Below, one piece after another: positions 45,551-47,825 of a DNA stretch of 64,000 nucleotides. The notes below the pieces were generated by a model, which was not told the origin of the DNA, did not search any database, and saw only the letters and a list, made by a program, of their open reading frames with translations. Origin of the DNA: Flavobacteriales bacterium. GTDB lineage: Bacteria; Bacteroidota; Bacteroidia; Flavobacteriales_D; Sanyastnellaceae. The first letter of the stretch is position 1. Every line of letters begins with the position of its first letter. The stretch lies in contig PKEB01000016.1 in NCBI GenBank assembly GCA_002863125.1, positions 62,001 through 126,000 of the forward strand. Reading direction: 5' to 3'. The position numbers were made by a program, and so were the translations under genes.

Positions 45551-45919
45551 TTAAGCCTCTTCGGTGGTTTCGGGAGCGGAGGCAGGAGCCTCTTTGGATT
45601 TGTTGCGACGCGATTCAGCGTAGGCAACGTGGTACTTGTCCATTCGCGTAGTCAAAAAGCGAATGACGCGCTCGTCCCGACGGAATTCAGTTTCGAAGGG
45701 CAGGATAACAGATGCATCGGCTTCAAACTCCAGCAACTGGTAGAAACCAGTAGATTTTTTCTGGATGGGATAAGCCAGCTTCCGCAAGCCCCAGGCCTCC
45801 TCGTGCACAATGATTCCTTTGTGCTCTTTGAGAAACGCCTTGTACTTCTCTACTGTTTCCGCTACCTGCTCGGCAGATAGCACGGGAGTCATGATGAAAA
45901 CAGTTTCGTAACGGTTCAT
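45551..45919 (-). CDS. rpsF: 30S ribosomal protein S6
   Basis: A 122-residue small-subunit protein. From the ATG at 45919 it reads [20 protein letters not shown] and contains [20 protein letters not shown] and [20 protein letters not shown]. The C-terminal tail is Ala/Glu-rich, as common in S6. An in-frame ATG ten codons upstream would run to the promoter region, so 45919 is preferred. It heads the ribosomal operon. The predicted leader is about 22 nt, too short for the classic S6:S18 autoregulatory RNA structure. Confidence 0.96.
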
Positions 45920-45946
45920 GTAGAACGGGTTTAAATTTATGGGGGG

Positions 45947-45954
45947 CAAAAGTA
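45947..45954 (-). promoter_or_regulatory. -7 promoter element of the ribosomal S6 operon
   Basis: TACTTTTG on the minus strand, 27 nt before the rpsF ATG. A TTG lies about 20 bases upstream of it (45975-45977, read on the minus strand), close to the expected -33 position. Confidence 0.6.
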
Positions 45955-45977
45955 CAGATAAGAACCTTAAAAACCAA

Positions 45978-45998
45978 AGGTTTCTCCGTGGGAAACCT
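45978..45998. repeat. Inverted repeat between rpsF and dnaX
   Basis: AGGTTTC and GAAACCT are perfect 7-bp arms with a 7-nt spacer. The site lies just upstream of the rpsF -33 region in the 133-base divergent gap and could be a binding site for a regulator of either gene. Function unknown. Confidence 0.4.
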
Positions 45999-46052
45999 GT
46001 TCATAAAGCGGTTTGGCGATGCGTTCGAATGCGTGCGATATTCGCATGAACA

Positions 46053-47825
46053 ATGGAAGCCGCTCAACAACCGCAATATACCGTGTCTGCACGGAAGTAC
46101 CGCCCGCAACACTGGGACGCGGTCGTCGGGCAAGACAGCATCACGCGCACCCTCAAGCAGGCCATTGACCAAGAGCAAATCGCCCAAGCGTACCTCTTCT
46201 GCGGTCCGCGGGGCGTGGGTAAGACCACGTCGGCGCGCATTTTTGCCCGTGCCATCAACGGGTTTGACGCGAACGACCAGGAGGATTACGCGTTCAACGT
46301 TTTCGAGCTGGATGCCGCTTCTAACAACAAGGTCGAAGACATCCGGTCGATTGTGGATCAAGTGCGCATCCCCCCGCAACAAGGACAGTACAAGGTCTAC
46401 ATCATCGACGAGGTGCACATGCTGTCGCAGGCGGCTTTCAATGCGTTTTTGAAGACGCTCGAAGAACCACCGCCGCATGCGGTCTTCATCTTGGCCACCA
46501 CCGAAAAGCACAAGATCCTTCCGACCATCTTGTCGAGATGCCAAATCTTCGACTTCCACCGCATCACCGTGCCGGACATGGTGGAGCACCTGAAGGGCAT
46601 CTGCGCGAAGGAGGGGATAGAAGCCGAAGAAGCCGCGCTGCATGTAGTAGCCGTTAAGGCAGATGGCGCGCTCCGCGATGCGTTGAGCATTTTTGACCAG
46701 CTCGTCGCTTTTGCCGGCAAAAAACTCGACTACGCCACCGTTGCGGAACACCTGCACGTCCTCGACCAACAAACCTACTTCGATGTGGTCGACGCCGTCC
46801 GAGAAGCGGAAGTCGCCAAAGCGCTGCTCATCCTCGACGGCATCATTTCGCGCGGCTTCGATCCGCACCACTTCATCACGGGGCTCGGGGCGCACTTGCG
46901 CAACTTGCTCATGAGCAAAGACGCCAGCACGGTGGCTTTGATGGAAGTGACGGACGATGTCAAAGTGCAATTCAGCACCCAGTCCGCGAGTGTGGATCTG
47001 CGGTTCTTGGTGCGAGCATTGGATGCGGTCAACCAAGCCGACGTGCAGTACAAGGGAAGCAACCACCAACGGCTGCTTGTCGAATTGACCTTGATGCAGC
47101 TCGCTTCGTTTACGGAGGCTGAAAAAAAAAAGCCTGAACTGACGCCCATTGAAGCCGGCGCATGGTCGGCCGACGCTCCACCAACGAAAGCTCCGGCGAA
47201 TCCTGTGCCCGCCGCCGCCGCGCCGCATGCGCCTGCCCCGGTATCAGCCCCTGAGCCCGAGCCTGCGCCCGCAGCGGAGCAACCCAAAACCGAAGAGCCG
47301 CAACAGCCGGCGCCAGCCCCAGACCCGGTTCGCGAAAAGCCGAAAGCGCCTGAGGTACAGGCGGTTCCGTCGCTTGGCATTGCCGCCCCTTCAACCTTGA
47401 TGGATGTGGCGAAGCCCGTGGAGACGGCTGAGCCCGCTACTGGGCGAGAGCAACCGGTCACCGGAGAGGCCGTTGAAAAGGCATGGGAAACGTTCATCAT
47501 GACCGTAGAGTCGGAAGGGCAATTCAACCTCCACACGACGCTCAAGGCGACCACGATGGGTTTTGAGGACTCCACCATCACCCTAAACGTGCTGAATCAA
47601 TTGCAAACTGAGCAGATTCGGGAGATCCAGTTGCGTCTGAATCAATACTTCGCTGACCAGCTTCAAAACGACACCTTGAAGTTGGTTATTGAAATGGCTG
47701 AGCTTGAATCCGCTGCGGCCTCCGCGGAATTCATGAACGACCGCGAGCGGTACGATGAGATGGTGAAGAAGAACCCAAAGCTGGACGAATTGCGCAAGCG
47801 ATTGGATCTTGATTTACTGGGTTGA
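46053..47825 (+). CDS. dnaX: DNA polymerase III subunits tau (and probably gamma by frameshifting)
   Basis: Clamp-loader ATPase. The 590 residues contain the AAA+ domain with Walker A GPRGVGKTT (51-59), DEVH (119-122) and the sensor region TILSRCQIFDFHRI. The usual four-cysteine zinc module after Walker A is absent; residues 69-85 read NGFDANDQEDYAFNVFE, a state I associate with Flavobacteriales. Domain III ends about residue 355. Then comes a run of ten A (47122-47131) holding the heptamer A AAA AAG in frame, followed by a Pro/Ala-rich linker (about 370-470) and the tau C-terminal domain. A -1 shift on the heptamer reads GCC TGA and would end a 361-residue gamma. The ATG at 46053 gives MEAAQQPQYTVSARKYRPQH. 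Confidence 0.95.
   Translation: MEAAQQPQYTVSARKYRPQHWDAVVGQDSITRTLKQAIDQEQIAQAYLFCGPRGVGKTTSARIFARAINGFDANDQEDYAFNVFELDAASNNKVEDIRSIVDQVRIPPQQGQYKVYIIDEVHMLSQAAFNAFLKTLEEPPPHAVFILATTEKHKILPTILSRCQIFDFHRITVPDMVEHLKGICAKEGIEAEEAALHVVAVKADGALRDALSIFDQLVAFAGKKLDYATVAEHLHVLDQQTYFDVVDAVREAEVAKALLILDGIISRGFDPHHFITGLGAHLRNLLMSKDASTVALMEVTDDVKVQFSTQSASVDLRFLVRALDAVNQADVQYKGSNHQRLLVELTLMQLASFTEAEKKKPELTPIEAGAWSADAPPTKAPANPVPAAAAPHAPAPVSAPEPEPAPAAEQPKTEEPQQPAPAPDPVREKPKAPEVQAVPSLGIAAPSTLMDVAKPVETAEPATGREQPVTGEAVEKAWETFIMTVESEGQFNLHTTLKATTMGFEDSTITLNVLNQLQTEQIREIQLRLNQYFADQLQNDTLKLVIEMAELESAAASAEFMNDRERYDEMVKKNPKLDELRKRLDLDLLG
47114..47137 (+). promoter_or_regulatory. Candidate programmed -1 frameshift / slippage site in dnaX
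   Basis: In the dnaX frame the codons read GAA AAA AAA AAG CCT GAA. The last seven bases of the A-run plus G form A AAA AAG (47126-47132), the same heptamer and phase as the E. coli dnaX site. In the -1 frame the next codons are GCC and TGA (stop at 47135-47137). GGAGG (47114-47118) lies 7 nt upstream, similar to the stimulatory Shine-Dalgarno-like element in E. coli, though Bacteroidota ribosomes use such sites poorly. A short GCCG/CGGC stem (47154-47170) lies downstream. Confidence 0.6.

Follow-up and report, generated by a model that had tools for sequence, protein, structure and literature searches.

A ten-adenine run in dnaX of a Flavobacteriales bacterium as a probable site of RNA-polymerase slippage, and the changing frame of tau among its relatives

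The window, a stretch of 64,000 nucleotides from a Flavobacteriales bacterium, carries on its forward strand the gene dnaX (46053..47825), which encodes a clamp-loader subunit with a full-length tau of 590 aa. The assignment is based on the open reading frame and on NCBIfam and Pfam matches: TIGR02397 (dnaX_nterm) scores 388 bits with a cut-off of 250, and NF011531 spans residues 8–588 with 638 bits, under its cut-off of 685. The Pfam match to clamp-loader domain III ends with residue 356, and at codon 357 starts a run of ten A (47122..47131), the proposed RNA-polymerase slippage site, across which the in-frame codons read GAA AAA AAA AAG CCT GAA. The last part of the run and the following G form the heptamer A_AAA_AAG in frame (47126..47132), a possible ribosomal −1 site, and upstream of it lies the Shine-Dalgarno (SD)-like sequence GGAGG (47114..47118), a putative stimulator with a duplex energy of −8.8, which is 7 nt away from the heptamer and 3 nt from the run. 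Behind the run, the −1 frame reads GCC TGA and is closed by the TGA at 47135..47137, and the +1 frame is closed by a TGA at 47140..47142, 8 nt from the run end. Tau itself continues with a Pro/Ala-rich linker recognized in the translation (47133..47417, its end being approximate) and a C-terminal part (47418..47822, its start being approximate), which was traced by tblastn with residues 456–590 and by a model test, and which is kept in the relatives in whichever frame. The preliminary description of this DNA had reported the ten A with the in-frame heptamer, the −1 GCC TGA, the products of 361 and 590 aa, and the position of the run where the clamp-loader part ends and the Pro/Ala-rich extension starts, all of which are borne out by the sequence, the open reading frame and the domain match; its distance of 7 nt for GGAGG is correct when counted to the heptamer. 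The stop in the +1 frame is an addition to that description, which had only the −1 stop.

E. coli DnaX has a four-cysteine zinc module after the P-loop; in the present protein, the stretch past the P-loop (FCGPRGVGKTTSARIFARAINGFDANDQEDYAFNVFELDAASNN; 46053-46400, DnaX residues about 45–115) shows no such module. In the family f25, most DnaX matches start only at residue 79 or 80 and two at residue 8, perhaps owing to an insert in that region of DnaX. In addition, an antisense open frame of 501 codons (45723-47228, minus strand) overlaps dnaX and the neighbouring gene, and is probably a by-product of codon use.

When different lengths of the run were simulated in this gene, A10 gave 590 aa, A11 361 aa, A9 362 aa and A12 363 aa, and more generally A7, A10 and A13 gave 589–591 aa and A8, A9, A11 and A12 gave 360–363 aa. 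Thus one extra A leads to the same stop as a −1 shift, as had been proposed before. The gamma-like product of 361 aa (46053..47137) predicted from an A11 mRNA or from a −1 ribosomal shift would end in ...EAEKKKA, and a second one of 362–363 aa (46053..47142), predicted from an A9 or A12 mRNA, would end in ...KKSLN. In the proposed mechanism, the A:T hybrid would slip during transcription of the run and give mRNAs with fewer or more A; those with A10 (or A7, A13) would be read through to give tau, and those in either other frame would meet a stop 3 or 8 nt past the run, so that translation would end with gamma-like proteins of about 360–363 aa. The frames of such slipped mRNAs are given by the sequence, and the gamma-like products would follow from their translation.

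The run in dnaX is the sole run of nine or more A on either strand of the window. By itself it is not improbable in 64 kb, as the number of A9 matches was reached in 39 of 100 shuffled versions of the window, and since the number of runs alone leaves chance possible, the argument was moved to the relatives. The whole genome (2.27 Mb) has five A10/T10 runs including that in dnaX. Two of the other four, at the loci L363 and L364 (contigs C10 and C13), appear to be close to the 5′ end of extended open frames; these frames look like dnaA and carB, names that come from translations judged by eye. One of the remaining runs is in no open frame above 80 codons and one is in a 112-codon open frame.

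For the comparison, the DnaX protein of the window was searched in overlapping sets of 22 genomes of the genus, 114 of the family, 110 of the order and 148 of the phylum, as well as in named genome contigs. Loci were taken from 99 of the 102 genomes with a match in the family set, and from 60 of 71 and 60 of 143 further genomes with a match in the order and phylum sets, respectively; the named set consists of the best 80 loci of a capped list, and a pattern search contributed 7 selected regions. Seven of the last 20 regions were selected for odd run lengths or flanks, which introduces a bias, and one turned out not to be dnaX. A total of 306 loci were gathered, of which two with a contig end before the site, one without DnaX and one duplicate were dropped. 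In the other 302 the site could be read, the search for it covering the 230 nt that follow residue 335. The frame that stays open longest past the run was assigned to tau; it was readable in 257 loci, and nine more run-bearing loci were too short. The loci are related, and their counts are not independent; moreover, besides the single exact duplicate removed, some genomes may occur in both the named and the unnamed set, and chance may account for a few of the runs found in A-rich loci within the 230-nt search span.

A run of nine or more A is present behind domain III in 266 of the 302 loci, with exactly ten A in 210 of them, and the named carriers include Flavobacterium, Chryseobacterium, Pedobacter, Hymenobacter, Aquimarina and Crocinitomicaceae. 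The named relatives closest to the window are in keeping with its origin from a Flavobacteriales-like member of Bacteroidota. In the 36 run-less loci, the zero frame is open for more than 300 nt in 27, among them gut Bacteroidales and distant families from the phylum search, the contig ends in 2, and an early zero-frame stop occurs in 7; L171 and L172 are run-less loci with such an early stop. The codon phase of the run is distributed as 172, 48 and 46 of the 266 loci over the three phases, the base after the run varies among relatives, and A_AAA_AAG is in frame in 93 of the 266 run-bearing loci, while the weaker A_AAA_AAA is in frame in all of them. The genus g57 resembles Flavobacterium in its flanks, and a pattern of seven or more A between constant flanking bases was found in 199 of its 299 genomes; a hand count of the 150 matches listed, few of which were checked singly, gave 144 A10, 3 A11 and 2 A9, and one A8 match is not dnaX.

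In the genus of the window, the run is in the same phase in 14 of the 15 members with A10, and all of these 14 have AAA AAA AAG without any synonymous change and both off-frame stops within 20 nt, although the mean synonymous difference among them is 0.52 over the 133 degenerate codons of the stretch. The Pro codon after the run shows no synonymous change either, and the next two codons have values of 0.17 and 0.14; these codons with little synonymous change are those that spell both stops. In dnaX of the genus, Lys is encoded less often by AAA (0.39) than by AAG, yet all 14 members use AAA at the first two Lys positions of the run. The heptamer is kept in 14 of the 19 genus members, and the members with A11 do not have it. 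The preliminary description had suspected selection on the run and had named mixed AAG codons or a missing −1 stop in the relatives as signs against its view; the uniform spelling and the two stops in the 14 members are the opposite of this, and the comparison of relatives supports the selection that the run by itself could not establish.

The frame of tau relative to the preceding part of the gene is 0 in 138, −1 in 83 and +1 in 36 of the 257 loci. Thus in 119 of the 257 relatives no tau is possible without a shift, as the zero frame ends soon behind the run. We considered whether tau has been lost in the shifted species and rejected this, because 116 of 117 tested shifted tau parts (of the 119) match a model built only from unshifted genes, with L279 as the single miss and no match from reversed decoys. 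The frames are consistent within clades: all 12 readable loci of g20 have tau in +1 and all 8 of g3 have it in −1. On a tree of the N-terminal part, nine frame changes were counted in the family of the window (90 labelled loci; mean of 35 with shuffled labels), and 37 on the whole, quickly built tree of 257 loci (shuffled mean of 100), so the states are inherited rather than noise and yet unstable. In g57, loci with near-identical flanks have tau in frame 0 with A11 (two loci), in +1 with A9 (two loci) and in −1 with A10 (G211 and G252). In the genus of the window, the locus L021 (G013) reads A10-CATAG at the position of A11-TAG in its sisters; this difference places tau in +1 and is either a very recent switch or a sequencing error. 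G024 has apparent indels near the site relative to its sisters.

In 239 of the 257 loci, each of the two non-tau frames meets a stop no more than 30 nt past the run, compared with 46–61 of 257 at five control positions farther downstream in these genes. The third frame, which a single ribosomal shift could not use, is closed in 127 of 138 loci with tau in 0, in 82 of 83 with tau in −1 and in 32 of 36 with tau in +1, while after shuffling of the tau codons the proportions are 0.39, 0.64 and 0.35, respectively. When each group contributes a single locus for each frame, it is closed in 55 of 60. An exception is G223, where the +1 frame is open for 258 nt.

Elements known to assist ribosomal frameshifting were also sought. 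No enrichment of a downstream stem-loop was seen over 257 loci (mean z of −0.34 and −0.25 in the control, p 0.64), and the fold downstream of the run in dnaX of the window has a z of +1.3, without a stem-loop signal; z is below −2 in 3 of 18 genus members, which do not include the window. The SD-like pairing upstream of the site surpasses that in most other segments of these genes, and it exceeds synonymous shuffles when related loci are counted singly; with one value per group, however, the codon-level excess is not significant (30 of 51 groups negative, p 0.17), and the score of a scrambled probe is almost as good. In the assembly of 35 contigs, 33 tRNA matches were found with one tRNA-Lys, anticodon TTT (UUU), but tRNA-Ile is absent from this list, so other tRNA genes may be missing from the assembly. 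In 20 genomes examined for tRNA-Lys, only TTT was found in 15, and 5 gave no match. It has been reported that Bacteroidia ribosomes do not recognise SD sequences, the anti-SD being sequestered (PMC9976891), and that F. johnsoniae frameshifts poorly at prfB (PMC12421855).

Taking these data together, we consider it very likely that two DnaX forms are made, which agrees with the earlier suggestion for this lineage, and we assign a probability of about 0.78 to the reading that A10 is a programmed RNA-polymerase slippage site and the main route to the two forms. From the anatomy of the site and the pattern of its conservation, we infer that the polymerase slips, that both proteins exist and that they take the roles of tau and gamma in the clamp loader. 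Polymerase slippage is favoured because the run is kept while the direction of the shift, the phase and the heptamer drift; a fixed homopolymer with a free direction of shift has been used as an indication of slippage in transcription (Antonov 2013, PMC3711429). With every frame supplied by slippage, there would be no need to conserve the one in the DNA, and related lineages with tau in 0, −1 or +1 indeed keep the run, both off-frame stops and the tau C-terminal part. The preliminary description had called the site "E. coli-like" and had left ribosomal and polymerase slippage side by side; the heptamer and the −1 stop are present as it said, but the comparison shifts the weight to the polymerase. 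An E. coli-type −1 ribosomal frameshift on A_AAA_AAG, helped by GGAGG, could make gamma without any slipping of the polymerase, and it would account for the heptamer and −1 stop kept in 14 of 19 genus members, for A_AAA_AAA in frame in every run-bearing locus, for the SD-like pairing of −8.8 that is above most control windows overall, and for the single detected tRNA-Lys(UUU), which as in E. coli would favour slipping on AAG. However, such a pure −1 shift explains neither the 36 loci that would require a +1 shift nor the closing of a frame that a −1 shift never enters; moreover, the heptamer is in frame in only 93 of 266 loci, the downstream structure is lacking both in the window and over the 257 loci, the codon-level SD excess falls short of significance with one value per group and is nearly matched by a scrambled probe, and the ribosomes of the class are reported to be blind to SD sequences (PMC9976891). 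We thus regard it as unlikely as the sole route. In the family f9, three loci have lost the long run yet keep a shifted tau, which means that another route must exist there. Of these, L237 (G176) retains A7, spelling A_AAA_AAG in frame with tau in −1, which fits ribosomal shifting and is a candidate switch to the ribosome; in L239 (G182) and L314 (G139) the run has decayed and tau is intact in −1, and a search of G139 by eye revealed no convincing slippery or shift site. A combination, in which slipping of the polymerase creates the mixed mRNAs and ribosomes contribute a further −1 shift at runs that end in A_AAA_AAG, overlaps with our main reading and is less likely than not. The parts for each route are present (the heptamer, GGAGG and the single detected tRNA-Lys(UUU), the stem-loop excepted), and in some f9 lineages a shifted tau persists although the run is largely or wholly gone, as if the routes were exchangeable, but the gene of the window needs no second route, and the A11 members of its genus do without the heptamer.

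The remaining explanations do without any programmed slippage. That tau alone is made and the run is a neutral Lys stretch agrees with the run being not improbable in 64 kb and with the 29 of 302 run-less loci without an early zero-frame stop (27 open for more than 300 nt, 2 with contig ends), but it would leave the choice of the rarer AAA in 14 of 14, the crowding of off-frame stops behind the run and the shift required for any tau in 119 of 257 relatives without a reason, and we judge it very improbable. Sequencing errors or phase variation in the DNA could also be thought of as the source of the differences in run length and frame, as homopolymers are error-prone, many of the sources are metagenome bins and there are single odd loci such as G013, G042 and G024; with the frames being consistent in g20 and g3, the stops being placed correctly for each frame and the run length being nearly fixed at ten, this has the least credit of all, and sequencing error as a general explanation was rejected on the consistency within clades.

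Polymerase slippage at dnaX has an experimental precedent in Thermus thermophilus, where it occurs in transcription on A9 (PMC1088944, PMC5009743). As far as these reports describe it, the gene of the window resembles it in the poly-A run, tau in frame 0 and nearby stops in both other frames, and differs in having ten A, in one tRNA-Lys found compared with two in Thermus (PMC5009743), in the relatives with tau in all three frames and in that slippage is deduced here from sequence. Like the Thermus gene, dnaX of the window has a single uninterrupted tau frame, which 119 of the 257 relatives do not. In a set of 17 genes with −1 frameshifts, slippage has also been proposed for two-ORF dnaX genes with ten A, nine of which are reported (Antonov 2013, PMC3711429), and the 83 loci with gamma in 0 and tau in −1 share their arrangement. 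Compared with what is given of that set, 0, −1 and +1 all occur here and the third frame is closed, although the species may overlap (PMC3711429); tau solely by recoding does not apply to the gene of the window, with tau in frame 0, but does to the 119 relatives. The E. coli gene, with its −1 ribosomal frameshifting (PMC5009743, PMC3711429), shares with the present one, in the features described there, A_AAA_AAG, a −1 stop one codon later, an upstream SD-like sequence and one tRNA-Lys, and is unlike it in that here the stem-loop is not enriched, the heptamer and direction are not conserved, the run is longer and the +1 frame is closed too. Slippage at dnaX is thus already known, while a drift over three frames was not found described in the open-access literature searched, mostly at the level of summaries, and this wide drift among the relatives is more surprising than the gene of the window itself.

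We consider it probable, with somewhat less assurance than the slippage at this site, that dnaX is frame-agnostic across much of Bacteroidota and neighbours: an ancient A10 slippage would supply three frames, the frame in the DNA would be nearly neutral and would have wandered without constraint between the three ever since the phylum arose, and tau of many species would depend on the slipping of the polymerase. The frame that each mechanism never needs separates here two mechanisms that are inseparable from single sequences. Annotation of the shifted species may record dnaX as a pseudogene or as a short gene for gamma alone, and may list tau as absent. If the reading is true, polymerase slippage would be an ordinary expression route of an essential replication gene in much of a phylum.
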